Source of the DNA: Xanthomonas sp. GPE 39
Lineage (GTDB): Bacteria > Pseudomonadota > Gammaproteobacteria > Xanthomonadales > Xanthomonadaceae
Direction of reading: 5' to 3'
Length of the DNA stretch: 64,000 nucleotides
NCBI RefSeq assembly: GCF_000963005.1
Contig: NZ_JZHZ01000007.1
Span: forward strand, 2,004,848-2,068,847
In this document: one piece after another, positions 42,505 to 61,010 of the stretch
How positions within the stretch are numbered: position 1 is the first letter of the stretch
Layout of the letters: each line of letters starts with the position of its first letter
Notes under the pieces: generated by a model
Database searches by the model: none
Told to the model about the DNA's origin: nothing
What the model saw: the letters and a program-made list of their open reading frames with translations, nothing else
Position numbers and translations under genes: made by a program

Positions 42505-42545
42505 GTCTTGTCGCAATTAGCGGTTTCGCATGCGGAATAACGCAT
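42505..42545 (-). promoter_or_regulatory. Shared regulatory element, copy A (TonB receptor 1)
   Basis: GTCTTG at 42505-42510, exactly 19 bases, then ATGCGGAATAACGCAT at 42530-42545, an inverted repeat. In gene orientation the palindrome comes first and CAAGAC follows toward the gene. It lies 318 bases from the receptor ATG. Beyond CAAGAC, copies A and B also share ATTGTG at the same distance (22 bases). The rest of 42188-42709 holds no gene. Confidence 0.7.
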
Positions 42546-42709
42546 GGTCGCGGTGACGCGACACGCTAGCGGCAATCACCGGACGGCATGGCGCAAGGTA
42601 TTGGCTCAGAGCAGAGGCAGCAGCCATCTATCGCTCAATCCAAACGCACGCCCAATATGCACGTGCATACGCGGCGTCGTGGACGCCACGCATGCAACAG
42701 CGCATCGTC

Positions 42710-44365
42710 TTACTGCCGATTCAATGCGTGGCGTACAGCCGGTGGCGGCGACAGCCGCAGTAACACCACGCCATGCGCGGCAACCTGCACGCTGCGGAGT
42801 TGATGCGCCGGGTGCGTCTGGCCGTGCCATACATCGCGCCAACGACGGCCCCGCAATACGGTTCCCGCGTCCTGCGCGGTCAACGCCACCCGGTGCGGCT
42901 GCGCATCGCGATTGAACACCCCCAGGGCAATACCGCCATCGGCCAATGGCTTGCGCCAGATTTCGATTGCGCCGTCCTTGCGTATCGCCCTGCCCTGCAC
43001 GCCCAGCGCATCCTGGTCGATGGCCAGCACCTCGCGGTTGCGCAATAACGCCAATGTGGCCGGGGTCATCTGGCGCAGGTCGTTGCCCAGCAGCAACGGT
43101 GCTGCCGACATGGCCCACAACGCCAGATGGGTGCGATATTCGTCCTCGCTCATGCCACCGTTACCGACCTCAAGCATGTCCGGATCGTTCCAGCCACCAG
43201 GCCCGGCATCGGCCGGATCGCCGTTGTGCTCGAAGCCATTGGCGACCATGCTCGCGTAGGTGTCCTTGATGTCGCCGGTGGTGCGCCACAAATGCCCGCC
43301 GACCTCGCGCCCCCATTGGCCGACATGATCGCGCCCGTACTCGCACAGGCTATAGACGATGGGTCGCCCGCTGGCGCGCAACGCCTGACCCATCTGCAAA
43401 TAGGCGCGGCGCACCTGCTGCGGTTCGCGGAAGATGCCCTCACCCGAGCACAGGTCGTATTTGAGATAGTCGATGCCCCAGCCTGCCCAGGTCCGCGCGT
43501 CCTGTTCGACGTGGCCGTAGCTGCCCGGATAGCCAGCGCAACTCTTTGGCCCGGGCGAACTGTACAGGCCGAGCTTGAGCCCCTTGCTGTGCACGTAGTC
43601 GGCCAACGCGCGCATGTCCGGGAAACGTGCGTTCGGCTGCAGCACACCGTCGCGGTCGCGCTGGCCCTGCCAGCCATCGTCGATGTTGACGTAAAGATAG
43701 CCGGCATCGCGCAGGCCCGAGGCGACCATGGCATCGGCGATGCGACGCACGGTGGCGTCGTCGATGTGCTCGGCGAAACGGTTCCAACTATTCCAGCCCA
43801 GTGGTGGGGTCCGCGCCAAGCCATCGCTCGGTAACGGGGTATATGCCGGCAGTGGTGCGATTTGGAACGCTAACCGCACCGCGTCGGCTTCACTGCCACG
43901 GGTGGCGCGCAGGTCGATCTGTTTGTGCCAGATGCGGCCGACCACGTGCAGTTGGCCATGCTCCAGGGTCGCGGTCCATGGCTGCGCGGACAAGTGCGCA
44001 TTGCCGTTGTCGATTGCGAACCGGGCCACGGTGCCGTCCAGGCGCAACTGCTGCATCGGCAGATCGCCGTACCAGTCGGTGGTGATGCTGCCCTGCGCCT
44101 GACCATCGCGCTGGGCGATGCGCAGATAACGCAGCCCTGGAAACGTCGGCTCCGGCGCGATGACCCACACGCCCTGCAACGGACTGGCCGCCGCCATGGC
44201 GGTACCGGCAGTCGGCGCATGCGCGCACCCCGCGCCGGCAAGCGCGCCCAGACCGAACAGGCCACGCCACAACAACCAGCCGGTCGCGCAGATCACGGCG
44301 CGTAGGCGCGAGGCGCTCCTCAGGCGGCCCCCAGACACACTACCGTGTACGCAGCGGGCGATCAT
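42710..44365 (-). CDS. GH27 glycosidase (alpha-galactosidase family), probable lipoprotein
   Basis: 551 residues. A long N-terminal leader ends in LAGAGC, a probable lipobox. A ~120-residue beta-rich domain precedes the GH27 barrel: PPLGWNSWN, NIDDGWQ, nucleophile Asp in YLKYDLC, acid/base Asp in NDPDMLEVGN and SAAPLLLGNDLR. A C-terminal all-beta domain follows. GH27 contains alpha-galactosidases and beta-L-arabinopyranosidases. In this locus, release of the alpha-galactose that decorates Ser in extensins is an attractive role. Its ATG overlaps the GH127 stop (ATGA). Confidence 0.92.
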   Translation of the reverse strand: MIARCVHGSVSGGRLRSASRLRAVICATGWLLWRGLFGLGALAGAGCAHAPTAGTAMAAASPLQGVWVIAPEPTFPGLRYLRIAQRDGQAQGSITTDWYGDLPMQQLRLDGTVARFAIDNGNAHLSAQPWTATLEHGQLHVVGRIWHKQIDLRATRGSEADAVRLAFQIAPLPAYTPLPSDGLARTPPLGWNSWNRFAEHIDDATVRRIADAMVASGLRDAGYLYVNIDDGWQGQRDRDGVLQPNARFPDMRALADYVHSKGLKLGLYSSPGPKSCAGYPGSYGHVEQDARTWAGWGIDYLKYDLCSGEGIFREPQQVRRAYLQMGQALRASGRPIVYSLCEYGRDHVGQWGREVGGHLWRTTGDIKDTYASMVANGFEHNGDPADAGPGGWNDPDMLEVGNGGMSEDEYRTHLALWAMSAAPLLLGNDLRQMTPATLALLRNREVLAIDQDALGVQGRAIRKDGAIEIWRKPLADGGIALGVFNRDAQPHRVALTAQDAGTVLRGRRWRDVWHGQTHPAHQLRSVQVAAHGVVLLRLSPPPAVRHALNRQ

Positions 44366-46794
44366 GTGCGCGCGACCGGGATCAGCCAGCCGCCGAACAG
44401 TGGCCCGGCGGTATCGCCATGCTGCGGTTCCAGGCGGAAGGTCAGCATCGCGGCATCGGCGGTCAATGCCGGCGGCAGTGGGTAGTTGCGATCCACGAAA
44501 TCGATCACCTGTCCGCCTTCCACTTGCACCTCCACGGCCAGCTTGCCGTTCACCAGAATATTGAAACGGCCCTTGTCGCTCCCCCAGAAACGCAGGCGCA
44601 GCACCAATGGCTGTTGACTACCGCGCATCTGAAATTCGACAAAACCCTTGCCACGCACATCGCGACATTGCTGGCGACGGTAGGCACCACCGAAGGAGGT
44701 ATCGCTGCGCAGTTTGTGCGCTTTCTCCGATGCCTCGTCGCCGAACTGGATCATGTCCACCGCAATCGCACGCAGACTATCTTGCTCGGCCTGCTGGCGC
44801 GCGCGCCGCGCTGCTTCCTGCGTCCACTGCGCCGGCTGCATGCGCTTGAAGTACAGCGCACTGCGCCGCTCGTACTGGGCATAGAACGGCACGAAGGTCA
44901 GTCCTGGCGGCTGCGTGTCGCTGGCGAGGAAATGCCCCGGCTGCGGCAATTCGGCGAAACCGGCCAGCGGATCGGCCGCCGCCACCAACGCCGGATCCGG
45001 CGCATCGTAGGGCGTGCCGACCGGCCCGAGATCGGCGGCCAAGGCCAACGGACCGCGCATCACCACCACGGTCTGCGGATCGCCGGCCGCATGTTCCAGC
45101 CGCAGCGGCGTGGCCAGTTCCAATTCGATCACATCGCCACTGCGCCAGTCTCGCTCCAACGTCAGATAGCCATCGCTGGGCGTGCGCCGCAGCCGCTTGC
45201 CATTGAGACGCAGCGTATAGCGTCCCTGACACCAGGCAGGCACCCGCAACAATAATCGCCGTGGCGCGCGCGCGCCGGCACGCAGCACCTGCAAACGCAC
45301 TTTGCCGTTTTCGGGCACGCCACTGTCCAGCTCCAGCGACAGATCGCGCTCGCTCCAGTCCAGCCGCGAGGGAATGTACAGGTTGACATACAACGCCGCC
45401 TCGTCCTGCCAGTAGATCGCATCGCCGAACTGCGCATGCGCTTCCATGCCGCTGCCGACACAACACCAGAACGAATCGAACTTATCGGAAAACCCACGCT
45501 CGCCGCCGCTGATCATCGGCGTCATGTAAGTAAACATGCCGGTAGCCGGATGCTGCGCGGCCATCGTGTGATTGTGCAAGGTGCGCTCGTAGTAGTCGAA
45601 ATAGCGCGCCTGCGGCGTCCATTGGTACAGATGCCGGGTCAGCTTGAGCATGTTGTAGCTGTTGCAATGCTCGCAGGTCTGCTCGGTGAGGAACCCGGCG
45701 ATGCTGTCCGGCTCCTGGAAATATTCGCGGTCCGAATTACCGCCGATCACATAGCTGTAGTGCGCGGTCACGGTCTCCCAGAAAAAGCGCGCCGCCGCCG
45801 CCGCATCGGCATCGCCGGCGACTTCGAACTGGCGCGCCTCGCCGATAAACTTGGGTACCTGGGTATTGGCGTGGATGTGCGGCAGTACATCGTGCCCGGC
45901 GGCCAGCGGGTCGATGATCTTCTCGTGGCGCAGTCGCTTGCCGATCGCAATCCAGCGCTCCTGCCCGGTGCGCGCGCCCAGCTCGATGAAGGATTCGTTG
46001 AGTCCACCGAACTCGGTATCCAACAAGGTCTGCATCTGCGCATGGTCGAGCGCGTCGAAGACTCCGGCGAAGTAACCGGCCACCTTCACCAGCACCGTCA
46101 GCGCCTGCGCGTTATCGCCCAGGGCATGCGCGTCGAGCAGGCCGGCGAACAGCTTGTGCTGGGTGTACAGCGGCGACCAACTGCCGTTGAGATTGAACTT
46201 GCTGCCCTTGATGATGCCGCGACGCACGTCCTCCATCACCGCCTTGCCGCCTTCGATCTTGCCGTTGTCGGTCTTGCGGGTGAAGCCGCCGACATAGCCG
46301 TCCGGATCCTTCGCCTGGGCGCGTGCCAGTTCGGCGACGATGTAGTCGATGCGCACACGCAAATCGCCATCGCGGGTCTGCGCATGCATCTTGGACAAGG
46401 CGCTGAGGTAATGCCCCAGTGTGTGCCCGGCGATGGTATCGCCCTCCCAGCCGCCGTAGACCGCGCCCTTCGGCGGCAACCCGGCATACTGCAGGAAGTT
46501 GTGCAGCAGGCGATCGGGCTCCAGTTCCAGCAGGTAGCGACGGTTGGTCTGCAGCGAATCCAGAAACAGCGACGGTTTGAGCGTGACCTGCCGCAACGGC
46601 AGCGCCTGCACCCGCCCGGGGGTGGACGCGGCGGCATCTTGCGGAAAGCGCAGTAATCCGGCCGCCATCGCCAACGCGCTCCATTGCAGGAAGCGACGCC
46701 GTGATGGATCCAACGCGGCGCTTGCGGCGTGATCGCGATGACGCCCGAAGGCATCGCCCATTGCGCCATCGCAGCTCCAGGGTGTCTTGCTCAT
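44362..46794 (-). CDS. hypBA1: GH127-type beta-L-arabinofuranosidase, Tat-exported
   Basis: 810 residues from the ATG at 46794. The N-terminus has the Tat motif SRRRFLQWSALAMAAGLL. The (alpha/alpha)6 domain carries the zinc-thiolate centre of GH127/GH146: Glu and Cys in EQTCEHCNSYNMLKL and the paired cysteines in SFWCCVGSGMEAH, one of which is the nucleophile. Characterised members release beta-L-arabinofuranose from hydroxyproline-linked arabino-oligosaccharides. The extra C-terminal ~200 residues include a DUF4986-like beta domain. The start has no Shine-Dalgarno of its own but overlaps the stop of a 17-codon leader ORF. The GH27 gene follows with an ATGA overlap. Confidence 0.88.
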   Translation of the reverse strand: MSKTPWSCDGAMGDAFGRHRDHAASAALDPSRRRFLQWSALAMAAGLLRFPQDAAASTPGRVQALPLRQVTLKPSLFLDSLQTNRRYLLELEPDRLLHNFLQYAGLPPKGAVYGGWEGDTIAGHTLGHYLSALSKMHAQTRDGDLRVRIDYIVAELARAQAKDPDGYVGGFTRKTDNGKIEGGKAVMEDVRRGIIKGSKFNLNGSWSPLYTQHKLFAGLLDAHALGDNAQALTVLVKVAGYFAGVFDALDHAQMQTLLDTEFGGLNESFIELGARTGQERWIAIGKRLRHEKIIDPLAAGHDVLPHIHANTQVPKFIGEARQFEVAGDADAAAAARFFWETVTAHYSYVIGGNSDREYFQEPDSIAGFLTEQTCEHCNSYNMLKLTRHLYQWTPQARYFDYYERTLHNHTMAAQHPATGMFTYMTPMISGGERGFSDKFDSFWCCVGSGMEAHAQFGDAIYWQDEAALYVNLYIPSRLDWSERDLSLELDSGVPENGKVRLQVLRAGARAPRRLLLRVPAWCQGRYTLRLNGKRLRRTPSDGYLTLERDWRSGDVIELELATPLRLEHAAGDPQTVVVMRGPLALAADLGPVGTPYDAPDPALVAAADPLAGFAELPQPGHFLASDTQPPGLTFVPFYAQYERRSALYFKRMQPAQWTQEAARRARQQAEQDSLRAIAVDMIQFGDEASEKAHKLRSDTSFGGAYRRQQCRDVRGKGFVEFQMRGSQQPLVLRLRFWGSDKGRFNILVNGKLAVEVQVEGGQVIDFVDRNYPLPPALTADAAMLTFRLEPQHGDTAGPLFGGWLIPVART

Positions 46795-46844
46795 CGCGCG
46801 CGCGCTTGCAGACAGGCGAACGAGATACGGCTCAACATCGGCAT
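46791..46844 (-). CDS. 17-codon leader ORF translationally coupled to the GH127 gene
   Basis: Encodes MPMLSRISFACLQARAR and ends in TGA overlapping the GH127 ATG (ATGA). It is preceded by AGAGGAG at optimal distance, the only strong ribosome site in this leader, while the GH127 ATG itself is preceded by alternating GC. Ribosomes finishing this ORF would restart on the GH127 gene. The peptide has no features suggesting its own function. An alternative reading is a frameshifted remnant of an older N-terminus. Confidence 0.55.
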   Translation of the reverse strand: MPMLSRISFACLQARAR

Positions 46845-46991
46845 CTGGAACTCCTCTTGGACGATCACCCGCACGGCACGGATGGGATTGACGCACTTGC
46901 CTGTCCGAATGCTCCAGGCACCGCAGCAGCGCCCCACACCGCACCAAGGCATCCGCACACCCCCCGGACTATCCCATCGCCCCCGCACAGT

Positions 46992-47032
46992 GTCTTGTCG
47001 GCGACCGTGGCAATGTATGCGGAAATTTGCAT
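46992..47032 (-). promoter_or_regulatory. Shared regulatory element, copy C (GH127-GH27 unit)
   Basis: GTCTTG at 46992-46997, 19 bases, then ATGCGGAAATTTGCAT at 47017-47032. The outer ATGC/GCAT arms are kept but the inner right half is degenerate. It lies about 150 bases before the leader ORF and 200 before the GH127 start. It sits next to the 3' end of the S9 peptidase gene, showing that GH127-GH27 has its own promoter. Confidence 0.7.
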
Positions 47033-47064
47033 GAATGGGGAACATCGAACGTCTCCGCGCGGCG

Positions 47065-49464
47065 TCATCGATGCTCGCTGCGCTGGGTGGTGGGCGAACG
47101 GTTCCAGTCCGGGGTTGGCGCGTGCTGCAACCAACGCACGAAGAAATCCAGTAAGCGACGCTCGCCATACGCCCCACCGGCACCATGGTCGCCACCGGGG
47201 ACCAACAGCAAATCGAACTCCTTGCCGGCCTTGACCAGCCGATCGACCACCTGGAAGGTGCTGGCCGGATCGACGTTCTTGTCCATGTCGCCAGTCACCA
47301 GCAACAGATGGCCCTGCAACCGCCAGGCGTTGTCGACATTGGACGAGGCCGCGTACCACGGCCCGATTGGCCAGCCCATCCATTGCTCGTTCCACCAGAT
47401 TTTGTCCATGCGATTGTCATGGCTGCCGGAATTGGCCACGCCGACGCGGTAGAACTCGGGATGGAACAACAGCGCGCCCAACGCATTCTGGCCGCCGGCG
47501 GAAGTGCCGAACACGCCGATACCGCCCTGGATCGCATACCAGGGATAACGCGCGGCGACGGCCTGGTGCCACAGAATGCGATCCGGGAAACCGCCATCCT
47601 TGAGATTGCGCCAGGCCACATCGTGGAAAGCGCGCGAGCGGTTGTTGGTGCCCATGCCGTCGATCTGCGCGACCGCAAATCCCAGCGCGGTCAGCGCAGG
47701 GACCCAGGTGGTGAACGTCTTCGGCACGAACGAGCCCTGCGGCCCGGCATAGATGGCCTCCACCACCGGGTACTTGCGTGCCGGATCCAGCGCTTGCGGA
47801 CGGTGGATCACGCCCCAGATTTCGGTGCGGCCGTCACGACCAGGCGCATGAAACGGCAACGGCGGCTGCCAGCCGGCGGCAAGCAGGCGGGAAATATCGG
47901 CATGCGCGATGGTGCGCACCACCGTGCCGTCTTCGGCATGGCGCAGCACTAACACCGGCGCTTGATCCACACGTGAATACAGGTCCAGCAGCCAGCGTCC
48001 GTCCGGCGACGGGAACACCTGGTGGTCGGACGCCTCCGGGGTCAGCGCCACCGGATCGCCACCGTCCAGACCGATGCGATAGGCATGGCGATAGTACGGA
48101 TCCTCGCCGGGGTTCATCCCCGAGGCGGTGAACCAGAGCTGCCGCGTCGCCGGATCGACACGATCGACCTTGCGCACCACCCACGGCCCGTGTGTGACTT
48201 GCCGCACGACACGCGCACTCTTGCCGTCGTACAGGTAAAGGTGTTCCCAACCATCGCGCTCGGAGCCCCACAAAATCTGCTTGCCGTCGTCCAGATCCTG
48301 GCGGAAGTGTTTGCCGCCGTTGATGTGGTCGCCACCGAGGTCGGAATAATCGATGAACGTTCGCGAAGTTTCTTCGATCAAGGTGCGCGTGTGACCATTG
48401 CCAGCATCCACTTCGATCACCCGGTAAAGCTGATGACCACGCTGGTTGTACTCGAAGGTGATGCTGCGGCCATCGTCGCGCCAGCGCGGCGGTGTAAGCC
48501 CGAACGCAGTGGGAAACAACGCGTTGTCGATCTCAATCGCACGCCCGGAGGCAACATCGAAGAGCACCGGACGGATCACAGGCAGCGGGTCGCCAGGTTT
48601 GGTGTAGACCTGTTGATGCAACTTCGGTTGCAACTGATCGGCAGGGGCCGATTCGATGTAGTACACCACGTGCGGCGGCGCGGGCGTCACCCGCCAGGCG
48701 ATCAGCCGACGCGCATCCGGCGACCAGGCAATGCTGTCGGCGGCGTAATAGCTGTCCTTGCCGCCATCGCGGCTGAGCCGGACCTTGCCGCTGCCATCGG
48801 CGCGGTCGACCACCAGATTGCCCTGCTCCACCCAGGCGCGCTGACGGCCATCGGCAGACAGCTGCCCGTATTCGGGGCCTTCCTGGCGTGGCGGGGCCAT
48901 ATCGTAGGAATCGGCATCCTCACCACTATCACGCTGAGGTTCACAGCGATACGCATGCAGATCGCAACGCCAATGTGCTGCGGTACCACGCACGAAGGAC
49001 AGCATGCCATCGGCGCTCATGCTCACCTGGCGCAGTTGCAGATCGTCGGCAGCCACCGTGCCGTCCCCGCCCTGCGTCAGGGCGTCGGCCAACCGCTGCG
49101 GATCGAACAGGGGACGTTGCTCGCCGCTGCGCACATCCACCAGCAAATAGTCCTGCCGTGGTGCCTTGCCCGCGCGTATCCGGCCAATGCGGTAGAGAAA
49201 GTGCGCGTTATCGACCCAGGCCGGATAGGCGGGCTCCTGATCCACCAGCGCGGCATAGCGTGTGCGCAGCGACTGTGCGTTCTGATAATCGGCTTCACTG
49301 GGCGCGCCGGCCGCCGCCGCGTAAAAGGGCATTGCCGCCAATAACAGCATCAAACAGCCACGCACGCCCATGGCAAGCGGCTGCGACGATCGCAATTGCT
49401 GCACAGACCTATCTGCAACCAAAGCGGCCTGCATGGAGTTACCTTCTGATTTCACTGATTTCAT
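47065..49464 (-). CDS. S9 prolyl-oligopeptidase/DPP4-type peptidase 1
   Basis: 799 residues. An N-terminal beta-propeller (about 60-530) has DPP4_N repeats such as WSPDARRL and WFTASGMNPGEDPYY; the C-terminal alpha/beta-hydrolase has catalytic Ser in GTSAGGQ, Asp in GDMDKNVDP and His in GGDHGAGG. A hydrophobic segment near residues 35-55 is the export signal; the start at 49464 overlaps the GH43 stop (ATGA), while an internal ATG at 49434 has a good ribosome site (AGAAGG) and is an alternative. S9 enzymes cleave after Pro/Ala, suiting proline-rich plant glycoproteins. Confidence 0.9.
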   Translation of the reverse strand: MKSVKSEGNSMQAALVADRSVQQLRSSQPLAMGVRGCLMLLLAAMPFYAAAAGAPSEADYQNAQSLRTRYAALVDQEPAYPAWVDNAHFLYRIGRIRAGKAPRQDYLLVDVRSGEQRPLFDPQRLADALTQGGDGTVAADDLQLRQVSMSADGMLSFVRGTAAHWRCDLHAYRCEPQRDSGEDADSYDMAPPRQEGPEYGQLSADGRQRAWVEQGNLVVDRADGSGKVRLSRDGGKDSYYAADSIAWSPDARRLIAWRVTPAPPHVVYYIESAPADQLQPKLHQQVYTKPGDPLPVIRPVLFDVASGRAIEIDNALFPTAFGLTPPRWRDDGRSITFEYNQRGHQLYRVIEVDAGNGHTRTLIEETSRTFIDYSDLGGDHINGGKHFRQDLDDGKQILWGSERDGWEHLYLYDGKSARVVRQVTHGPWVVRKVDRVDPATRQLWFTASGMNPGEDPYYRHAYRIGLDGGDPVALTPEASDHQVFPSPDGRWLLDLYSRVDQAPVLVLRHAEDGTVVRTIAHADISRLLAAGWQPPLPFHAPGRDGRTEIWGVIHRPQALDPARKYPVVEAIYAGPQGSFVPKTFTTWVPALTALGFAVAQIDGMGTNNRSRAFHDVAWRNLKDGGFPDRILWHQAVAARYPWYAIQGGIGVFGTSAGGQNALGALLFHPEFYRVGVANSGSHDNRMDKIWWNEQWMGWPIGPWYAASSNVDNAWRLQGHLLLVTGDMDKNVDPASTFQVVDRLVKAGKEFDLLLVPGGDHGAGGAYGERRLLDFFVRWLQHAPTPDWNRSPTTQRSEHR

Positions 49465-51062
49465 TGTCTGCTTTCTCCCACATCACACGATGCCTGCGCA
49501 TGCGACGGCGCACGCGGCGGCAATATCTGCGCTCGCGGCGCGAGCATTTCCCACTCCTGCACTGCCACCGCAGCGTATGTGCGGCCATCGCCGGAGGCAT
49601 CGAACACCGCGCGCACGCAGCGTGTGCGCACCGGCGCGAAGGCGACGCGCTGGAATCGCCCCACCGCATTCGGGTATCGGCTGACTCCGGGAATCGGCAA
49701 CCAGCGTCCCTGCGTGCGGTATTCCAGATGCCAGGCACGTGGCGGCGCCACGCCGATGGCAGCCCCGGCAGGCTGGTCGGCGAAGAACACGATGCGGCTG
49801 CCATTCAATGTGACCGGCGCTGCCCAGCCATATTGGATCCATTGTTGCGACGGATTGTGCGAGGTCCAGCTCCCCCACATTTGCGGTGGCAACGGATGCG
49901 CATTCACCACGCCATCGTTGAGCGCGGCGATCCAATACTGCACCGGAATGGCCGGGCTATTGGACGCGGTGGCGATGGCCGCCGCGGCGAGGTTGCGCGA
50001 TGGCGACGGCGCTGGCCTGGGCCGGCACGTCGGCAATACCTTGCGCATGCGCGCAGGGCTCACGCTATCGTCCCACTGCAATGTATCGATGGCCACGCTA
50101 CGGCGAAAATGACCGCCCCCCTTGGCATCGGCGGTGTGATAGACGAGGTACCACTGGCCCTTGAACTGGACGATGCCAGGATGCGAGGTGGTCGAAGACA
50201 CCGGATCCAACACCACACCGCGATACGTCCACGGCCCCAGCGGCGATGGCGCGGTGCCATAGGCGATGCAGGCGTGATACAGCGTCGGCGTGCACGCCGA
50301 ATCGGGGCCGGCGTTGTTGGCGGCGTAAGCCATGTAGTAAGTGCCGCGACGCTTGAACACCCATGGCGCCTCGAAATATCCATCCAAGCTTTTCACCGCG
50401 ACCACCGGCCCCTTCGGCGTGACCATGTCGCGTTCCAGCTCGATGCCGAACAATGTCCCGAACGTGCCCCAATACGCATAGACGCGGCCATCGTCGTCGA
50501 CCAGCACCGTGGGGTCGATGTTCTGAATCGTGTTGCGCACCGGCAGCGACTGCGACAGGATCGGCCCCTGCGGATGCGCATCGCGCCACGGCCCCAGCGG
50601 ACTGTCGGCCACCGCCACACCAATCGCGAACGCATCGGCATTGCGCGAATGCGCTTCTTGCACCGGGGCATACAGGTAATAACGTCGATCCGTGCCCTGC
50701 ACGATCTGCGCGGCATAGGCATGCCCCGGCGCCGCCCAGGCGAACACCTGCTCCGGGCGCAATAAGTCCGGATAATAGGTCCAGCGACCACTGCCGACAG
50801 TGTCAGTGACCAGCAGTTGCCAACGCGGGATGACGAAGTCGTTGACCTGCGCTGGCGCTTCGTCGCGACCGGCGATGATGTACAGCTTGCCATCGGCCAC
50901 CAGCGGCGCGGGGTCGGCCGAATAATCGCGGCCATCGGCCAGGATTGGATTGCCGAGCGCATGCACCTGACGCGAACGCAACGCCGCTGGGGATGCTGCC
51001 AAGGCACCGGTCATCGCGCATATCGCCAGCAGCAACAGCGCCCGCGCGTACAGCCTGCTCAT
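49461..51062 (-). CDS. hypAA: GH43 alpha-L-arabinofuranosidase-type enzyme with C-terminal sugar-binding-like domain
   Basis: 533 residues from the ATG at 51062; the signal peptide ends ALAA. The five-blade propeller has the base Asp in YSADPAPLVADGKLY, the modulator Asp in NIDPTVLVDDDG and the acid Glu in GYFEAPWVFKRRG. After about residue 350 comes a ~150-residue beta domain (ALNDG... WGSWTSHN... WHLEYR) that closely resembles the second discoidin-like domain of the preceding gene product. In the characterised Xanthomonas system the equivalent GH43 removes the terminal alpha-arabinose of Hyp-linked chains. The start overlaps the upstream stop (ATGA). Confidence 0.88.
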   Translation of the reverse strand: MSRLYARALLLLAICAMTGALAASPAALRSRQVHALGNPILADGRDYSADPAPLVADGKLYIIAGRDEAPAQVNDFVIPRWQLLVTDTVGSGRWTYYPDLLRPEQVFAWAAPGHAYAAQIVQGTDRRYYLYAPVQEAHSRNADAFAIGVAVADSPLGPWRDAHPQGPILSQSLPVRNTIQNIDPTVLVDDDGRVYAYWGTFGTLFGIELERDMVTPKGPVVAVKSLDGYFEAPWVFKRRGTYYMAYAANNAGPDSACTPTLYHACIAYGTAPSPLGPWTYRGVVLDPVSSTTSHPGIVQFKGQWYLVYHTADAKGGGHFRRSVAIDTLQWDDSVSPARMRKVLPTCRPRPAPSPSRNLAAAAIATASNSPAIPVQYWIAALNDGVVNAHPLPPQMWGSWTSHNPSQQWIQYGWAAPVTLNGSRIVFFADQPAGAAIGVAPPRAWHLEYRTQGRWLPIPGVSRYPNAVGRFQRVAFAPVRTRCVRAVFDASGDGRTYAAVAVQEWEMLAPRAQILPPRAPSHAQASCDVGESRQ

Positions 51063-54000: not shown

Positions 54001-55411
54001 GCAATGCGTCTACATCGGCACTGGCATAGCGCGCCAGTTGCGCGGCGATGGCCGGCGGTCCGCCATGCACCTGATAGGCTCGCCACGCCGCGGCACTGAG
54101 ATACTGCGCGTAGGAGTTGGACCAGTTTTCCGGCGCGCCGGGGTTATCCACGTACTTGCCGCCACCAGCGGTCTCGCCCGCACCGAGCCAGGAACCGTAG
54201 GCAGCGGTCGGATCGCGCAGATATTTGAGGTCGTCGATGAACATGCCGGTGGTCAGCACGATCGCGTTGTCGTAGCCGAGCACGCCTTCGATCGCCACCG
54301 GAAACTGATAGTCGTTGCCGGGCACCACGGCATCGAGAAAATTGAAGCGCAGCAACCACCAGCGATAAAACAGGGTCTTATCGAGATTGCTCTCGGGCGT
54401 TTGCAGATACGGCAGGTTGTCGGCCCACCAGCGGTTATAGGCGACCACGTGCTCGGTGTAGGCCTGCTGCGGCGACTGTGCGGCGATGCGCCGGTATTGC
54501 TGCAGCGAGGCCGGCAACTCGCGTGTGACCAGGCCCAATTGCAGCTTCAAGGTGGGTGTCGCCCCGGTCGCCGGGACAACCACGCGCCGCACCAGGCTGC
54601 CACCATCGACCGCAAAACCATCTCCAGACAGGCGCGGAAAGAGCGTGGTGATCGCGTTGTGGGTGACGAAGGCGCCAATCAATTCCGCGCCATCGGCGTG
54701 CGTGGCCATCGGCGAGGTCGCACGCACGCGTAAGCTGCGTGCTACGCCATCGGTACTGGACAAAGTGACCTCGGCCACCGCCACGTTCTGTTCGGTGATG
54801 AACTTGACCAGATGCAGGCGCACGCCGGCACCGGTGTACACGCTGCTGAAATAGCTCGGCGTCTGCCGCCGTTGCGCGCTGTCCTCGGTCAACGCCAGCG
54901 CTGCGTCAACGCCTTCCACCTGCAACCGGAACAAGGCATCGTGGCCGGTCTTGTGCACATAGGCCACATCGCCGACGAAGCCCGGCACTTCGGGTCGATG
55001 CGTGTACATATACGCGGCGCGGCCGCGCGTGAACAACCAACGATTGCCGTCCTGACCATCGCGATCACCCTCGCGACCACGACGCGCGAGCATGCGATCA
55101 ATCCAGAAATCCTTGCCAGGCGCACTGCCGGCGCCGGCCGCGCGGTCGACCGCGAAGACACGCGGCAAATAGCCGGTCCCTGGAACGAAGGCCACGCCAG
55201 TCGCCGGCACGGGCTGCGCATCGCCCTTGAAACGCGGCATCCCGAGTGCAGCGTTGCTGTGGTCCAGACCTTCGTCATCATCGGTCAGTTGCGCCGCGCC
55301 GGCCTGCGCGAATAACCCTGCCAGCACCAGCAACGCCGCGCCGATCCGCTGGGTGGTCGCGCGCCGCAGGCACCGCGCGACCACATCCCCGTCTTGCCGC
55401 TGCTGCCTCAA
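51059..55411 (-). CDS. hypBA2: Giant multidomain glycosidase, GH121/GH142-like, candidate beta-L-arabinobiosidase
   Basis: 1450 residues, starting at TTG 55411 that overlaps the receptor stop as TTGA. The signal peptide ends AGAAQ. A beta-sandwich (about 45-330) precedes an (alpha/alpha)6-type catalytic region (about 330-800: YRWWLLRFNFLD, EGVLGYDNAIVLTTGMF, conserved acids in DQNEFWAEG and VIEDAMGLRPRSD). Then come a discoidin domain (about 890-1030), an Ig-like stretch, a second discoidin-like domain (about 1140-1275) and two Ig-like group 4 repeats (LPERIAGYFADG; LPAFVGVQYNDG). The neighbours suggest the GH121 role of releasing arabinobiose from extensin chains; I could not confirm the family by motif, so the symbol is tentative. 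Confidence 0.7.
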   Translation of the reverse strand: MRQQRQDGDVVARCLRRATTQRIGAALLVLAGLFAQAGAAQLTDDDEGLDHSNAALGMPRFKGDAQPVPATGVAFVPGTGYLPRVFAVDRAAGAGSAPGKDFWIDRMLARRGREGDRDGQDGNRWLFTRGRAAYMYTHRPEVPGFVGDVAYVHKTGHDALFRLQVEGVDAALALTEDSAQRRQTPSYFSSVYTGAGVRLHLVKFITEQNVAVAEVTLSSTDGVARSLRVRATSPMATHADGAELIGAFVTHNAITTLFPRLSGDGFAVDGGSLVRRVVVPATGATPTLKLQLGLVTRELPASLQQYRRIAAQSPQQAYTEHVVAYNRWWADNLPYLQTPESNLDKTLFYRWWLLRFNFLDAVVPGNDYQFPVAIEGVLGYDNAIVLTTGMFIDDLKYLRDPTAAYGSWLGAGETAGGGKYVDNPGAPENWSNSYAQYLSAAAWRAYQVHGGPPAIAAQLARYASADVDALLRAYDRNGNGLIEYDWAAMTGNDADAVSFDWAKRHGQARMDRSESAYVYANALAAAQAAQLAGDTVTATRMQALAAKIRRAVLQVLWQDHSASADSMGLHGDLLKQRQAEDARLPVDWKETNNYYPFSVGLMPKRGDPDDDPKYVRALRLFADARQFPLFPFYTANQADLHARGGDGSNNFSVINATVAFRLLGSVLRDYPSPYLDASSYRKLLYWNAWAHDIDGDNRYPDQNEFWAEGSAADGGKIGYRSWIHHTQLGASNFTVIEDAMGLRPRSDAMIELYPIDIGWDHFVADHLRYRDRDLSIVWDRDGRHYAGAAPKGYSLYLDGKLAFTVDRLAHVIYDPASGRVRAAADAVNADAAQVQVLAAHTLALQAPQQVRFPASARIGAVLADAGVDIGLPAAARNLAQGAAVSASFAAEGFPATAAVDGSTANEPFWGTVGSTAHSDWIALDLGQPQTLDDVRVYFYRSSSPPGEQHGFPSGTRAGYAPPWLYVLQYFDAGVWKTVPGQVRDRLIAQGNRNRIRFPPLRAQRWRIQVTHAGAQRTGIKEIQAYATGIAAPVASANDAPHVEAWQQDGAAADGAVHVSGRVGDDARPNGTLALQWRALRTPPGGAAIFAQAQDASSAVRFTVPGAYTLRLQVDDGALQGHADVEVIAPALPAEQAVQVQGEAEPSAQFTAAHHRLQALNDGWRPASGQVPAADRRWGSWGRAQPASVWVQYQWPQPQRLNATALYFWDDQPQGGVALPRGWTLQYRDGTQWREVVVRGDYPVLGGGAASRVAFAPVTTTALRVVLQTALRGDGHAAVGIDEWQVFAERAVATEAVDVRVAPGQVPALPERIAGYFADGRWAWLAVHWSQLDPAALAVEGRVQVQGLADGAVPVNASLWVRANAPGQINTVQAPPPLHVRVGQTPVLPAFVGVQYNDGSRERVPVRWSPLAPTVAAMPGSVSVEGQVQGRDGSGSMPVHMQVLIDPALAP

Positions 55412-58239
55412 AACTCGGTCCTGATCCGCGCCCAGAAATACCGCCCCAACGTGTCGTAAGTGAAGGCATCGGTATTGGCCGCGCTGGAATAACCGTAGTA
55501 GCGCGGCGGCGTGCGGTTGCCCAGGTTGTTCACGCCAGCGGACACAGTGCTGTGCAGGCTGTCGAATTTACGACTCAACGTCACGTCGTGGTACGTCACC
55601 GTGCCCACGTGGAAGTACACGCAACTGCCATCGGCGGCGGTGTTGATGCAGGTATCCTCATAGGCGCTACCGACCGTGGTGTGCCCGATCAGCCGCGTAT
55701 TCCAACTGGCATGCCACGGACCGTTGTCCCAACTCAGATTGAAGTTGGCGCGCCAGTGCGGCATGTTGCCGAAAAAGGACATTTCCCCAACGTAGTTATG
55801 CGGATCGCCGCTGAAGCTATAGCGGGACAGATAGGTCGCATCGACGCCGGCATGGAAGCTACCCCAGGCGGTGTCACGCAAGGCGTACTTGATGCCGATG
55901 TCGTCGCCACGGATATCGACCTTGCCACTGTTGATCGTAAATGGCACGGTCACGCTGACCAATTGTCCAGCCGCATCGCGTTGGATCAAAGGACAAAACG
56001 CGTTCTTCCCGTCATAGCAATTCTGCAACACCTCATCCAGACTGGTGCCGTTGAGCATGTCGTCGAGCCACACCCGCCAATTGTCCACATTCAACGACAG
56101 CCCCTCGGCCCAGCCTGGATCGTAGACTGCACCGATGTTGTAGGAGCGGCCCTGCTCGGGTCTGATCGCAAAGCCCGCGTTGGCCGACCCGGTGGTGATG
56201 ACCCTGAACGAAGACGTGTTGACGAAGCTGCCATTGCGCGGCACGTTGACGCACGCCGCAGGATTGCCACCACCGGTGTAGCCATTACACGGATCGCTAT
56301 AGTCGCCGGTGTCGTCGACTATCCCATTGAACGGCGAACCGTACAGATTACCCAGCGATGGCGCACGGAACACCTGCGAGCCGGTGGCGCGGATCAACAA
56401 GTTATCGAGCGGGCGCCACTCCAGCGCGATCTTGCTGTTGGTGGTGTTGCCCCAGTAATCGTACTTGGAATACCGCGTGCCCAGGTCGAGATTCAACGCC
56501 TGCGCACCAGGCACACCCTTGAGCAGGGGAATCAACAATTCGGCGTAGGCCTCTTTGACCGTCTCGTCATGGCCCTGATTCATGATGCAGCCGTCGTTAT
56601 AATCGCAACTGCCATACATATCGGCCGCCGCCACCGGGTTGCTGGTGCCTTGCGCAAAACCATCCTGCCGCAGCGACAACCCAAACGCGGCCTGCACCAT
56701 GCCGGCAGGCATCTTGAACAGATCGCCATTGACACTGGCTTCGGCGAATTTCATCGTGCTTTTATCCACCAGATCCACCGCGCTTTGCGTAGCCTTGATC
56801 CCCGCGATGGTGGCGGGGTCATCCGGATTGAAGATGTTGATCGGGGTGCAGCCGGCGATCACATTACCAGGCGTGCCGCATTTGATCGTGCCATCGCTGT
56901 CGCGGAACGAGGCGCCCACGGCGTTATTCAGCCGCGAGGTGACCGAAAAACCATGACGAATCAACGTGTCCTTGTAGTGCGCATAACCGGCGGCCGCATC
57001 CCACTGCCAACTGGTGTCGGCGAATTTGCCGCGTAGCCCGGCGACGATGTTGGTCTGGTACATCGTGGAAGTGTAGACGCGGGTATTGGCTTGCACCGAA
57101 CGTAGCAGGTAGCGGGTCAGTGCACTACCGAACGGGTTATAGTAATTCTGCGCGGCATCGGGCATTTCCAGGCCATAGGCGCTGAGCTGCGAGGTGGTCT
57201 GGCTACGAGTCCAGAAGACGTCCAGATATCCCTGCAGGTCCGGCGTGAAATCGAAACTGGCGTGTGCCGAGGCATTCGTTCGCTGCACCGGCGTAATCAG
57301 ATACTGCCCGTCATAGTAGTTATGGCCATCCGTGGCCACATCGTAGGGATGAAAATTCCCGGCATTGACCGCGCCTGGCGCCAATCCAGCATTTGGGACC
57401 AACACCTGGCCATCATTCAAAAACGCACGCGTGCCGCCGCTGCGCAGTTCATACGCAGTGCCGTTGTGATACCCCTGCGCCGTTTGGGCATAAGGGCGAT
57501 CAGCATCGTAAAGCGCATTCATCGAATTATGACTGACCCCCAGGATCAGCCCACCACGGTCCCAGCTCTTGCCCCACTCCACGCCCAGCCCACGGCGATT
57601 GCCATCGCCATGCGTACTCTGGCCGTAATCGGCGGTGACGGCGAAACCATCGTATTTGTCCTTGAGGATAATGTTGACCACCCCGGCGATGGCATCGGAG
57701 CCATAGACCGAGGAGGCGCCGTCGGTCAGCACTTCGATCCGTTCCACCATCGCCGCCGGGATCGCGTTGACGTCAACGCCGGGGGCGGCGGACACGCTGC
57801 TGGCAGGCCCGGCCATCCGATGACCATTGACCAACACCAAGGTGCGCTCGGGGCCGAGATTGCGCAGCGAGACCAGCGCGCGACCATGGCTGAAACCGGA
57901 ATTAAGCGCGATATTGGGCATATTGCCGGCCATCGCCGGCAGTTGCTGCAGTAACTGGCCTAGGGTGTTCTGGCCGCTGTCCTCGATCCGCTGGCGGTCG
58001 ATGGTGATGACTGGGCTTGCAGTCTCGGCATCGATGCGGCGGATATGACTGCCGGTCACGCTGACCCGCTCCAATGTGGTCGCCGCGCCGTCCTGGGTCT
58101 GGGCATCCTGTGCCTGCACCGCAAAAACCGGAAGCAGCAACAACGCAGCGTAGATCGCCGCGCTCAGCGGAGCATGACGCTGCGTAAGACGCCATGAACG
58201 AGGGAACAACGGCACCACGCATTCGAGTAAGGACGGCAT
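55408..58239 (-). CDS. TonB-dependent receptor 2 of the arabinosidase locus
   Basis: 943 residues from the ATG at 58239, with AAGGAGA upstream. The signal peptide ends AVQAQ. TonB box TLERVSV precedes the plug (LVSLRNLGPERTLVLVNGHR, GSDAIAGVVNIIL), and the barrel ends IRTEF. It is a paralogue of receptor 1 with the same plug architecture. It is the first gene of a four-gene chain (receptor, giant glycosidase, GH43, S9) in which every junction is a 4-base stop/start overlap, so import and degradation are made in fixed proportion. Confidence 0.93.
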   Translation of the reverse strand: MPSLLECVVPLFPRSWRLTQRHAPLSAAIYAALLLLPVFAVQAQDAQTQDGAATTLERVSVTGSHIRRIDAETASPVITIDRQRIEDSGQNTLGQLLQQLPAMAGNMPNIALNSGFSHGRALVSLRNLGPERTLVLVNGHRMAGPASSVSAAPGVDVNAIPAAMVERIEVLTDGASSVYGSDAIAGVVNIILKDKYDGFAVTADYGQSTHGDGNRRGLGVEWGKSWDRGGLILGVSHNSMNALYDADRPYAQTAQGYHNGTAYELRSGGTRAFLNDGQVLVPNAGLAPGAVNAGNFHPYDVATDGHNYYDGQYLITPVQRTNASAHASFDFTPDLQGYLDVFWTRSQTTSQLSAYGLEMPDAAQNYYNPFGSALTRYLLRSVQANTRVYTSTMYQTNIVAGLRGKFADTSWQWDAAAGYAHYKDTLIRHGFSVTSRLNNAVGASFRDSDGTIKCGTPGNVIAGCTPINIFNPDDPATIAGIKATQSAVDLVDKSTMKFAEASVNGDLFKMPAGMVQAAFGLSLRQDGFAQGTSNPVAAADMYGSCDYNDGCIMNQGHDETVKEAYAELLIPLLKGVPGAQALNLDLGTRYSKYDYWGNTTNSKIALEWRPLDNLLIRATGSQVFRAPSLGNLYGSPFNGIVDDTGDYSDPCNGYTGGGNPAACVNVPRNGSFVNTSSFRVITTGSANAGFAIRPEQGRSYNIGAVYDPGWAEGLSLNVDNWRVWLDDMLNGTSLDEVLQNCYDGKNAFCPLIQRDAAGQLVSVTVPFTINSGKVDIRGDDIGIKYALRDTAWGSFHAGVDATYLSRYSFSGDPHNYVGEMSFFGNMPHWRANFNLSWDNGPWHASWNTRLIGHTTVGSAYEDTCINTAADGSCVYFHVGTVTYHDVTLSRKFDSLHSTVSAGVNNLGNRTPPRYYGYSSAANTDAFTYDTLGRYFWARIRTEF

Positions 58240-58475
58240 CGGATTCTCCTTGGCTGCACGCGGTGCGATCGGTGAGGCATTCCCTGCATGGGGCCTGCAC
58301 CTCATCGCCAGCGCCTGTGGGCGAGTACGGAAACGAACGTGTCCACGCGTGCAGCCGGGGCCAAAACGCCCGGACACTGCACGCACGACGACGCGCCAGG
58401 TTCCGCTGTGGCGTGCATGAATCCACCCTGAAAATTCACTGCACTGACACAATGTGCGCGTATAGCGGATATCCC

Positions 58476-58516
58476 GTCTTGTGGTATTTACCGGGAAACC
58501 GTGCGGAATACCGCAC
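58476..58516 (-). promoter_or_regulatory. Shared regulatory element, copy B (receptor 2 operon)
   Basis: GTCTTG at 58476-58481, 19 bases, then GTGCGGAATACCGCAC at 58501-58516, a perfect 6-base inverted repeat around AATA. It lies 237 bases before the receptor ATG. The rest of 58240-58558 holds no gene. Confidence 0.75.
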
Positions 58517-58558
58517 TGCCCAACCCCAAGGGACGCTCCCGACGACTCCGCACGCTGC

Positions 58559-60916
58559 TCAACCGTAGACGGCGGCAATCGTCAGCGTTTCTGCACTGCC
58601 AGCCGGCACCTGCACGCGCTCGTTGCGCGGACCCGATAGCGGCACACGCTGCCCATCCAGCATCACCTCGCGCAAGCGCGTGCCCGCCGGCACGCGCAAG
58701 GTCAACCAGGTCCGCGATGGCCGCGACGGCGGCAAGTGCACACGTCCATCGATGCGCTGCCGTGCCGGATCAGCGCACAGACTCAACGACACCGCACCCC
58801 AGCGCGTCGGCGCAGCGGCAATGGCGATTGTCTGGCCACTGCCCAGCCAGTCGCGCGGCAGCGCCCGCGCCAGGAACAGCTCCTCGCCGGCGCTATCCTC
58901 GAACACCAGCATCCAGCGCAGCAATAGCGGGATCGTCAACTGCGCCGGGATGCAGAACAACGGCATGCCGCCGGTGATGCCGCTAACCTCGCCCGCGGTC
59001 CAACTGCCACGGGTATGCACGTGATAGCGATGCGCGTACAGGAACAGCAGGTATTCCTCGATCCGATCCAGACGCAGCAACTGCTGCGCGTAGCCGTAGG
59101 AGATGAAACCCAGCAGGTCGCGTCCTTCGGGCGTGGGCGCGGTGATGTTGCCGACCACGCCGAGGCTGGTGCCGCCATGACCACGCACACAGTCGATGAC
59201 CAAGTGCGCCAGATCCTCGGGCAACACGTCGGCCTGCAACAATTCGGAATAGGCCCGATGCGGCCAGCCCTGCTCGCTGGGCTGCTCCTGTTGCAGCGAT
59301 TGCCGGAAGGTGAGTTTCACTCCCGGCAGCGGGCCGATGTAGGGCGGGGTCAGGTCGCGCCGGATATTCCCGCGCACGCTGCGCTGTAGCTGCGTGACAA
59401 GCTGCTGCGCATGCCGCTGCCATTGCGTGGCGCTGGCCTGTCCGCCGACGCCGGCAATCGCAGGCCAGACCCCGGCGATGTCCCGCCAGCCGCGCACGGC
59501 CAGCGCGCTGTTGGCGTAGTAGGGTTTCCACCATAGCTGCGGATCGGCAGACAGACAGGCATCGGATTCGTTCCAGCCGTGGATCAGCCCGTGCCCTGGT
59601 GCCGCTGCCGGCAAACGCAAGCTGGCATCGTGCAGTTCCACCAGCACCTGGGCGGTGGCGGCGATCTTGTCGCGATGCTTGCGCAGCAACGCCACATCGC
59701 CGGTATAGCGCAGGTAGCGCGCCAGCAGGGACAGGGTCAGCCCGAACTGCCCAGTCTCCGCGCCGCGCATGTTGATCATGCCGTCGGCCTGCACGAAATC
59801 GCTGAAGTACCCATCCAGCACCGCCGCAGCCTGGGCGAAGCGGCCCCACTCCAGGTTGGCGTACAACGAACTGGTGAAGGTGTCCTGGAAACCATCGTAT
59901 TCGTTGCCGTAGTAATCGCGATCCACTGCGCCGTACTTGGGATAGGTACCGCCCGGGCGCACCACCAGTTCACGCGCGAAGGCAAAGCGCGCCATCTCGC
60001 TCCAACTGGGATCAGGCAACTGCGCCTGCGCCATGTCGGCGAGCAAGCCGTGCCAATAGCCAGCGAAGGCGAGCAGGCCACGGTAGAAATCCTCGGCACT
60101 GCGTGGGCCGCGTCGCGGTGGGTAATCCGGGTAGCTATAGCCGTAGACCACCTTGCGGACCTTGCCATGTTCGACCAGCGCGCTGCGGTGCCAGGTTTGC
60201 ACCACAAAGCGGTCCGTCGCCAACACATCGGCGAACAGCAACAAGTCGTAATAGCGGCCCTCGCCCGCCGGCACCACTTTGCGCACGGCCGGCATCCAAC
60301 CGCCGATCAGGCCTTCGCGACGACGCTGCACCAGCGCGTCTTTGCCCAGTTCCGGGAACGCCTGCACCGCCCGGTAAGTGCGCGTGCGCCCATCCGGATA
60401 CACCGGCATGGTATCGGCGCATTCGCGGGTCCCCACAAAGGTGGTCCAGGGCAAGCGCCCGTTGTAGTCCTTCGCATCCAGTTGCGACGCTGGCGGCGGC
60501 GCCACGTCGCGTACCTCGTCCTGGCGCGGATCGCCATCGCGCAACAGGCGGTCGGCGAGCAGGTCGGCTTCGGCCATCGCCACTTCGGCCAGGGCCATGC
60601 CGAAGTACGGCGCTTGTGCGGCGGGATAGACCGGCTCGGTACGTTTGCCCAACACCAGCGCGCCGTCCGGGCCAAGCAGGGTCAAGTCGCCATCGGGATG
60701 GCGCAGGTCTTCGTACACCGTCCAGCGCACGCCTGCTTCATCGAAGTGGCACTGCATGGTATGCCCGGCCAGCGCGTCGCTGGATAGCGCACGCAACGGC
60801 GGCAACGCGGGCGCGGAACGCGCAGTCGGCGTCGCCGTGGCAGTGCCGGCCAGCGCCTGGACACCGGCCACCGCCCCCACCGCCAGCCCCTGACGCAGGA
60901 AATCTCTCCGATCCAT
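58559..60916 (-). CDS. Tat-exported glycosidase-like protein of unknown specificity
   Basis: 785 residues from the ATG at 60916, with GAGGAGG upstream. Tat motif DRRDFLRQG starts the protein and ATATP marks likely cleavage. The N-terminal half is beta-rich; about 320-680 is helical with repeated aromatic/acidic segments (YGNEYDGFQDTF, GMINMRGAETGQFGLTL, HGWNESDACLS), the look of an (alpha/alpha)6 six-hairpin glycosidase. A C-terminal beta domain closes it (WGAVSLSL, VPAGTRLREVMLDG). No CAZy family was recognised. It has its own copy of the shared element 54 bases upstream, so it should be coexpressed with the locus. Confidence 0.75.
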   Translation of the reverse strand: MDRRDFLRQGLAVGAVAGVQALAGTATATPTARSAPALPPLRALSSDALAGHTMQCHFDEAGVRWTVYEDLRHPDGDLTLLGPDGALVLGKRTEPVYPAAQAPYFGMALAEVAMAEADLLADRLLRDGDPRQDEVRDVAPPPASQLDAKDYNGRLPWTTFVGTRECADTMPVYPDGRTRTYRAVQAFPELGKDALVQRRREGLIGGWMPAVRKVVPAGEGRYYDLLLFADVLATDRFVVQTWHRSALVEHGKVRKVVYGYSYPDYPPRRGPRSAEDFYRGLLAFAGYWHGLLADMAQAQLPDPSWSEMARFAFARELVVRPGGTYPKYGAVDRDYYGNEYDGFQDTFTSSLYANLEWGRFAQAAAVLDGYFSDFVQADGMINMRGAETGQFGLTLSLLARYLRYTGDVALLRKHRDKIAATAQVLVELHDASLRLPAAAPGHGLIHGWNESDACLSADPQLWWKPYYANSALAVRGWRDIAGVWPAIAGVGGQASATQWQRHAQQLVTQLQRSVRGNIRRDLTPPYIGPLPGVKLTFRQSLQQEQPSEQGWPHRAYSELLQADVLPEDLAHLVIDCVRGHGGTSLGVVGNITAPTPEGRDLLGFISYGYAQQLLRLDRIEEYLLFLYAHRYHVHTRGSWTAGEVSGITGGMPLFCIPAQLTIPLLLRWMLVFEDSAGEELFLARALPRDWLGSGQTIAIAAAPTRWGAVSLSLCADPARQRIDGRVHLPPSRPSRTWLTLRVPAGTRLREVMLDGQRVPLSGPRNERVQVPAGSAETLTIAAVYG

Positions 60917-60969
60917 CGACCCTCCTCGGATATAGGCAATCGTGCATCGTGCGCTGCGCGTACCGCAGC

Positions 60970-61010
60970 GTCTTGCGCGCTGTGCCGAGGATCGATGCGG
61001 AAAACCGCAT
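60970..61010 (-). promoter_or_regulatory. Shared regulatory element, copy D (Tat glycosidase-like gene)
   Basis: GTCTTG at 60970-60975, 19 bases, then ATGCGGAAAACCGCAT at 60995-61010, a perfect 6-base inverted repeat around AAAA. CAAGAC in gene orientation ends only 53 bases before the ATG, placing the element at or very near the promoter. Confidence 0.75.

Follow-up and report, generated by a model that had tools for sequence, protein, structure and literature searches.

Elements and genes at the locus

The window analysed here, a stretch of 64,000 nucleotides from Xanthomonas sp. GPE 39 (contig NZ_JZHZ01000007.1, positions 2,004,848 to 2,068,847 of the forward strand), contains a locus of arabinosidases and TonB-dependent receptors in which a sequence-only reading had recognised one composite regulatory element before four transcription units. 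Our analysis supports that claim, and the element was found to be kept across genera. The four copies of GTCTTG-N19-RTGCGGAA were confirmed upstream of receptor 1, of the GH127-GH27 pair, of the unit receptor 2-HypBA2-like-GH43-S9, and of a protein with a twin-arginine translocation (Tat) signal (Table 1). The plus-strand positions stood and the orientation was amended: the genes are on the minus strand, with the palindrome distal to them and GTCTTG (CAAGAC when read along the genes) proximal. Two things had been overlooked: the element amounts to a complete promoter, including a -10 at a fixed distance, and a fifth copy and a regulator gene are both located just outside the window. Judging from sequence comparison, the element is very probably the operator-promoter of an LhpR-like, hydroxyproline-sensing AraC/PAS activator that drives extensin deglycosylation and uptake.

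Table 1. Elements and genes of the locus in the window; the -10 sequences are predictions, and the scores come from a matrix trained without this genome.
Feature	Coordinates (strand)	Palindrome or protein family match	CAAGAC	Predicted -10 (spacing)	Held-out matrix score
Element 1, before receptor 1	42505..42545 (-)	42530-42545 ATGCGTTATTCCGCAT	42510-42505	CAAATT 42485-42480 (19 bp)	52.2
Element 2, before GH127-GH27	46992..47032 (-)	47017-47032 ATGCAAATTTCCGCAT	46997-46992	GATAGT 46973-46968 (18 bp)	39.8
Element 3, before receptor 2 operon	58476..58516 (-)	58501-58516 GTGCGGTATTCCGCAC	58481-58476	CACATT 58456-58451 (19 bp)	49.5
Element 4, before Tat-signal protein	60970..61010 (-)	60995-61010 ATGCGGTTTTCCGCAT	60975-60970	CACGAT 60951-60946 (18 bp)	45.9
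TonB-dependent receptor 1, behind element 1	39308..42253 (-)	Pfam PF00593 and PF07715			
GH127 beta-L-arabinofuranosidase, HypBA1-like, first behind element 2	44362..46947 (-)	Pfam PF07944, 411.5 bits			
GH27-type (Melibiase_2) enzyme, second behind element 2; 4-base overlap with the GH127 gene	42710..44365 (-)	Pfam PF16499			
TonB-dependent receptor 2, first behind element 3	55408..58578 (-)	Pfam PF00593 and PF07715			
HypBA2-like beta-L-arabinobiosidase, second behind element 3	51059..55411 (-)	NCBIfam NF041578, 1118.5 bits (below the cut-off of 3200)			
GH43 enzyme, behind element 3; listed start overlaps the HypBA2-like gene	49461..51566 (-)	Pfam PF04616			
S9 prolyl-oligopeptidase-family peptidase, last behind element 3	47065..49464 (-)	Pfam PF00326 and PF00930			
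Conserved Tat-signal protein, behind element 4	58559..60919 (-)				

With up to two mismatches allowed, GTCTTG-N19-RTGCGGAA matched the window exactly four times, each time with 0 mismatches, versus a mean of 0.96 in 100 shuffles of the window, of which 2 reached four matches; the fixed-spacing composite had been called unlikely by chance, and these counts bear this out. When the full palindrome was included, the copies at 58476 and 60970 matched exactly (shuffle mean 0.00), and the palindromes at 42530 and 47017 had 1 and 2 mismatches, in line with the earlier grading as two perfect, one near-perfect and one half-degenerate. In the whole genome (3.53 Mb) the pattern had four matches at 0 mismatches, all at this locus, and none at 1; the 49 matches at 2 mismatches compare with 34 when the reversed pattern is searched with as many as two mismatches allowed, and there were no comparable matches elsewhere. 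The palindrome alone was not enriched in the window (29 matches at up to two mismatches, 36.5 expected) and was for this reason rejected as a signal by itself; the significance belongs to the composite.

LacI-type operators are palindromes with a central CG. The palindrome here has no central CG, its centre being W-rich with TT on the proximal side, and the earlier view that it matches no LacI-type operator thus stands, as does the view that it matches no plant-inducible-promoter (PIP) box of HrpX, none of which was present near the elements in the window. The statement that the window encodes no regulator was not strictly true, as an AsnC/Lrp-type gene is located at 22570-23001 (-); nothing found here ties it to the element.

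According to PMC6085000, X. euvesicatoria homologues of three of the enzymes in Table 1 remove arabinose chains from hydroxyproline-rich glycoproteins; by its position and by analogy with that account, the GH43 enzyme would be HypAA-like. The listed start of the GH127 open reading frame is probably too far upstream. The mechanically called reading frames of receptor 2 and the Tat-signal protein extend across their own elements, and the true starts are therefore expected downstream. In other genera the locus recurs near DUF885 proteins, amino-acid permeases, M24-family peptidases and GH35-like enzymes.

Promoter anatomy and distribution of the element

Read along the genes, the element is RTGCNNWTTTCCGCAY-N19-CAAGAC-N18/19-NANNNT. 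We gathered 109 distinct copies from the window and from fetched loci, and kept 93 of them (about 40 effective) for a sequence logo and a -10 test, dropping the 16 without a left palindrome arm. As the search itself imposed both halves of the pattern, finding them perfectly conserved is no evidence; the left arm and the -10 formed no part of the search. The left arm was RTGC in 82 of the 109 copies. The logo had three blocks: RTGCNNWTTTCCGCAY; CAAGAC, after a weakly conserved stretch; and a block 18-25 bp downstream, which we read as a putative -10. NANNNT began 18 or 19 bp after CAAGAC in 39 of 41 non-redundant copies, whereas shuffled sequence gave a mean of 3.1 and a maximum of 14 in 2000 rounds. 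The two failures, L061 and L068, both resemble chance matches, as does a third kept copy, L088. Overall, 91/93 kept copies passed the -10 test versus 2/16 dropped ones, and the latter two (L112 and L113) represent one real-looking receptor-2 site.

Because of this spacing, CAAGAC would occupy the -35 position, with the palindrome centred near -64. The element thereby lies upstream of and overlapping the -35 position, before a -10 at fixed distance (39/41), and it has the features expected of an activator-type promoter. Other AraC-family class II activators act from a comparable position overlapping -35. An alternative sigma factor that reads the whole pattern, with CAAGAC as its -35 and no activator, would account for the 18/19-bp distance to the -10 and for the retention of CAAGAC in copies with a palindrome mismatch. 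However, the -10 block is only NANNNT and differs by gene class, CAAGAC can be replaced by CTAGNC or CTATTC, and the palindrome is kept 19 bp upstream, which is beyond what a sigma factor explains; we consider this reading very improbable. The accessible parts of the sigma-factor and HrpG literature (PMC6085468, PMC7036363) contain nothing on this motif.

All 20 genomes of the genus had 2-4 perfect matches to the strict pattern, on one contig and one strand per genome, and the reversed pattern had none. Among 395 genomes of the family, 84 had a perfect match, and the reversed pattern gave 12 matches; a lone match means little, and clustered matches mean much. A relaxed pattern, GNCTWG-N19-RTGCGGAA-N4-GCAY, was present in 93/395 family genomes, with one match for its reversed control. 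In the wider class, the exact pattern with the full arm was found in 2/369 genomes, both of this family. The element was retained with the orthologous loci. Two elements resemble chance, one in G108 (contig C138, inside a reading frame) and one in G348, which has no regulator match; a copy in G392, 304 kb from its regulator, is identical in sequence to the one in G108. Shared descent of the locus, or chance, instead of function is a practically negligible explanation: harvest copies do sit in orthologous loci and lone exact matches elsewhere are near the chance level, but within a single genome the four intervals have nothing in common but the element, copies survive where loci are rearranged and occur in other genera, remote copies precede functionally fitting genes, and the relaxed motif far exceeds its reversed control.

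The candidate regulator gene and the epimerase promoter

Near the g43 locus there were genes for a proline racemase and for a PAS-domain protein of the AraC family (PF12833, PF00165 and PAS_4). The orthologue in our genome, 77% identical to the g43 protein, matches PF12833 and is one of only three AraC-type (PF12833) genes there. It is located 11.4 kb to the right of the window, divergent from a 4-hydroxyproline epimerase gene that is the genome's only proline-racemase-family match over the cut-off and that passes the NCBIfam 4-hydroxyproline epimerase model (447 bits, cut-off 442). On the epimerase strand there are also aldehyde dehydrogenase-, DapA- and FAD oxidoreductase-type genes, with NCBIfam matches below the cut-offs. 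A regulator with an AraC-type DNA-binding domain and a PAS domain is thus encoded beside hydroxyproline catabolism genes.

The promoter region shared by the epimerase and regulator genes carries the fifth copy, GTGCGAATTTCCGCAT-N19-CTAGCC-N18-GAGCAT, at C1:2080117-2080157 of the genome. A matrix trained without this genome found exactly five sites in 95 kb, the four window copies and the epimerase copy, with scores of 37.7-52.2; nothing else scored above 10, and the reversed control reached at most 2.6. In several genomes (also at L153:12087) the predicted -10 is only about 6-9 nt before the epimerase ATG, and the mRNA may be leaderless.

By tblastn, 11 genomes had the regulator in the flanks fetched, and the ten proteins besides that of g43 were 62-86% identical to it. 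In nine of the 11, the element is located between the regulator and the epimerase, facing the epimerase, no more than 420 bp upstream of the regulator, and its second box is CTAGNC (CTATTC in G020). In the remaining two, the element is 495 bp off (G358), or a CAAGAC copy lies 281 bp off, before a receptor (G047). The fetched stretches of G030, G048, G104, G261, G348, G389 and G393 did not contain the regulator; a later search located it in five of them, at a distance of 12 to 16 kb from the element in three (G261, G389 and G393) and on a different contig in G030 and G048, but not in G104 or G348.

The distance analysis of relaxed elements covers 69 listed genomes and 150 elements. In 64 of these genomes, 20 of them from genus g15, the regulator gene has an element no farther than 600 bp away (median distance 99 bp), the five exceptions being G020 (26 kb), G261 (12 kb), G389 (15 kb), G122 (1.4 kb) and G348 (no regulator match). 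A regulator at least 77% identical was present in 59/59 genomes with at least two exact elements versus 5/336 others (G288, G306, G324, G375 and G388), and due to kinship a family-wide p for this co-occurrence is not meaningful as a probability. Within genus g16 the numbers were 4/4 versus 1/31 (p about 1e-4). The second exact matches in G260 and G347 are probably due to chance.

In genus g15, a CTAG copy is present at the regulator in 20/20 genomes, and none has two strict-pattern matches; G033 and G248 have one such match each, without a left arm (L071, L072). A HypBA2 search was negative in the 20 g15 genomes and positive in 6/6 element-bearing genomes tried. A GH127-family gene occurs in 17/20 g15 genomes, at 132-152 bits versus 411.5 for the window gene. 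The genus g15 thus appears to be without at least HypBA2. Because it has the CTAG copy at the regulator yet no HypBA2, the hydroxyproline operator would be ancestral, and the harvest genes would have been recruited to it later. Four listed CTAG copies of g15 genomes (G201, G258, G286, G302; at L174:5402, L175:5124, L176:4965 and L177:4841) are either a long way from the regulator or on a contig other than its own, correctly oriented to the genes behind them, which are amino-acid permease genes in three cases and a DUF885 gene in one. These genes are likely further members of the hydroxyproline regulon.

In the model of the X. albilineans orthologue, a PAS-like domain (residues 7-119) is followed by a domain with two helix-turn-helix motifs (128-233), with a mean predicted local distance difference test (pLDDT) score of 80; AraC-type domains match the model over about 100 residues. 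The first recognition helix, whose position we take from AraC structures, reads SVAQLER in 9/10 regulators of the group and SIAQLER in L164, which has no element in its 2.2 kb. Three paralogues (L168, L173, L170) have SLSKLER or SASKLER, and L169, of another family, has SVSQLER. No element was found at up to three mismatches in the L168 and L170 loci (3.7 kb), and the L173 and L169 loci have one element each with three mismatches. We also observed a second PAS-AraC match in 35/35 g17 genomes (57-58% identical among the matches listed) and a PAS-AraC match in 34/34 g29 genomes (mostly 56-57% identical among the matches listed); among these, the proteins aligned differ in the first recognition helix.

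Proposed mechanism, alternatives and related systems

The comparative evidence is strong: it comprises the promoter anatomy and its conservation, a fifth copy where the epimerase gene has its promoter, and a regulator that co-occurs with the element and adjoins it. We infer that the regulator physically binds the element, that it activates and does not repress, that its effector is hydroxyproline, and where transcription starts. In the mechanism that we propose, the hydroxyproline-rich glycoproteins of plants would supply hydroxyproline, or a compound closely derived from it, whose entry into the cell would turn the activator on. The regulator would bind the -71 to -31 region (palindrome and CAAGAC/CTAGNC box) and bring RNA polymerase to promoters whose -35 is poor and whose -10 is weak. 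A first set of targets would be hydroxyproline catabolism, a second one glycoprotein harvest (TonB receptors, arabinosidases, prolyl peptidase, Tat-signal protein), and extensin breakdown would feed back positively on its own harvest. A catabolic amino-acid sensor would then control the very TonB receptors and glycosidases that supply it with its inducer. Such a foraging circuit would have positive feedback, and its trigger would be the protein part of a glycoprotein and not the sugar. More tentatively, and with less than even confidence, we suggest a two-tier operator code for one amino-acid sensor, with ancestral catabolism sites of the CTAG type and later-recruited harvest sites of the CAAG type. 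If true, which genes are induced first, or how strongly, would depend on the type of box: trace hydroxyproline would turn on the foraging circuit (receptors, arabinosidases) first and catabolism next, or the reverse.

We must also note the points that weigh against an LhpR-like, hydroxyproline-responsive activator. AraC-family sites normally consist of direct or asymmetric half-sites, and a palindrome would be atypical. Lone strict-pattern matches are near the chance level, as the 12 reversed-pattern matches in 395 genomes indicate, and the family-wide co-occurrence of regulator and element lacks phylogenetic independence. In G375, and likewise in G388 (81% complete), the regulator and an epimerase-side element are present but an exact harvest copy is missing; the epimerase copy of G020 has the CTATTC second box; and a full element in G030 (L105:9987; G030:C1:909978-910018), with CAGCAT as its -10 at 18 bp, is on another contig than the regulator. 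The best PDB matches of the regulator model are chains of the autoinducer receptor VqmA. PMC8694187 places the PAS domain of LhpR among autoinducer binders, and the effector may accordingly not be hydroxyproline. As reported in PMC6085000, the xehypBA2 operon of X. euvesicatoria is upregulated by HrpX, meaning that other inputs exist.

The last points but one bear on the first alternative, in which the same AraC/PAS regulator responds to another effector, such as a downstream intermediate, arabinosyl-hydroxyproline, a prolyl dipeptide or a pyrazine-like signal. Besides the VqmA matches and the autoinducer-type listing of LhpR, downstream metabolites are discussed as possible effectors of HypR, a GntR-type hydroxyproline regulator (PMC6608401). 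However, the most consistent partner of our regulator is 4-hydroxyproline epimerase, and LhpR acts on binding L-hydroxyproline according to the same source; we regard another effector as unlikely.

A second alternative assigns the palindrome to a different regulator, for instance of the LysR or Crp/Fnr type, which would also control the adjacent AraC gene. With 16 bp of palindrome around -64 and another site close to -35, the arrangement does resemble the geometry of LysR-type recognition/activation sites and class I Crp sites, and palindromes are rare among AraC-family sites. LysR-type operators are T-N11-A dyads near -65; the dyad here is T-N12-A with an even centre, and on this ground, and with the regulator found later, a LysR-type operator was rejected. 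Moreover, the element directly adjoins the AraC gene in 64/69 listed genomes, and no other regulator recurred among the flank proteins scanned (part of the genes; 25/39 families in one table). A LytTR response regulator and a histidine kinase beside the G358 locus (L098:842-2679) had no close counterpart at other fetched loci and were rejected. Paralogues with a changed first recognition helix have no nearby element (L168, L170) or only a three-mismatch candidate (L173). In view of these data, a different regulator seems quite improbable, and we retain the AraC/PAS activator as the protein that would read the element.

Among known systems, the closest in domain layout and gene context is P. 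aeruginosa LhpR (PA1261), also of the AraC family, with an N-terminal PAS domain (PMC8694187) and tied to hydroxyproline catabolism genes, which is reported to activate the lhp genes on binding L-hydroxyproline (PMC6608401). The operator here was derived in this analysis. The predicted regulon differs from that of LhpR in extending to TonB receptors, arabinosidases, a prolyl peptidase and the Tat-signal protein; the type of regulator is already known, and the enlarged, polymer-harvest regulon would be new. HypR (GntR family; Proteobacteria and Streptomyces) likewise controls hydroxyproline epimerase and the catabolic pathway (PMC5343134, PMC6608401), but belongs to an unrelated regulator family (PMC5343134, PMC3223726) and, for the repressors described, has the opposite mechanism. 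No polysaccharide-harvest genes are described for HypR regulons in the accessible parts of these sources, and the Streptomyces regulon does include a collagenase. The structure of a hydroxyproline epimerase from X. campestris is on record (PMC4113996).

Two systems known from Xanthomonas are also similar in part. HrpX, an AraC-family activator as well, is described as acting on the same operon (xehypBA2-AA of X. euvesicatoria). HrpX/PIP promoters have a -10 of the YANNNT type at a fixed distance, as here. Unlike these promoters, the window elements have no PIP box (TTCGC-N15-TTCGC), and a PIP box was rejected as the signal: the relaxed form TTCGB-N15-TTCGB had one window match, at 46310, inside the GH127 gene, with none in the stretches (L103, L104, L108, L109 and L112) scanned from three further genomes (G035 and G008, 40 kb each; G372, 20 kb). 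Carbohydrate utilisation loci with TonB-dependent transporters (CUT loci) similarly combine TonB receptors with degradative enzymes induced by plant compounds (PMC1790865), whereas the signal predicted here is an amino acid from a protein backbone and not a sugar. The arabinose-induced receptors XCC1749/XCC1750 of that source were considered and set aside, as its accessible part does not show them to be this locus.

Element 2 stands before the orthologue of xehypBA1, which is reported to be upregulated in planta though without a PIP box (PMC6085000); the regulator-element pair, if true, would explain this rise. A literature search, mostly of freely accessible papers, gave no mention of this element or of a hydroxyproline regulon in Xanthomonas, and the accessible literature names HrpG/HrpX control only for this harvest system. 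The pair would give conserved plant-glycoprotein harvest a regulator, an operator and a signal that can be put to the test.

At the G008 locus, two elements carry one mismatch each (L108), and gene picking gave no minus-strand GH127 or GH27 frames at the expected place (L108 7803-13310, 13562); such genes are reported to have decayed in some Xanthomonas (PMC6085000). Two identical-scoring IS1595-type transposase genes are located there in tandem (L109:8138-10139). Lastly, the Tat-signal protein had no Pfam, NCBIfam or PDB sequence match, and its single-sequence structure prediction was not usable (mean pLDDT 36). Without a family match yet conserved, at 66-86% identity to 9 orthologues, it possibly represents a new family of glycoprotein-degrading enzymes.

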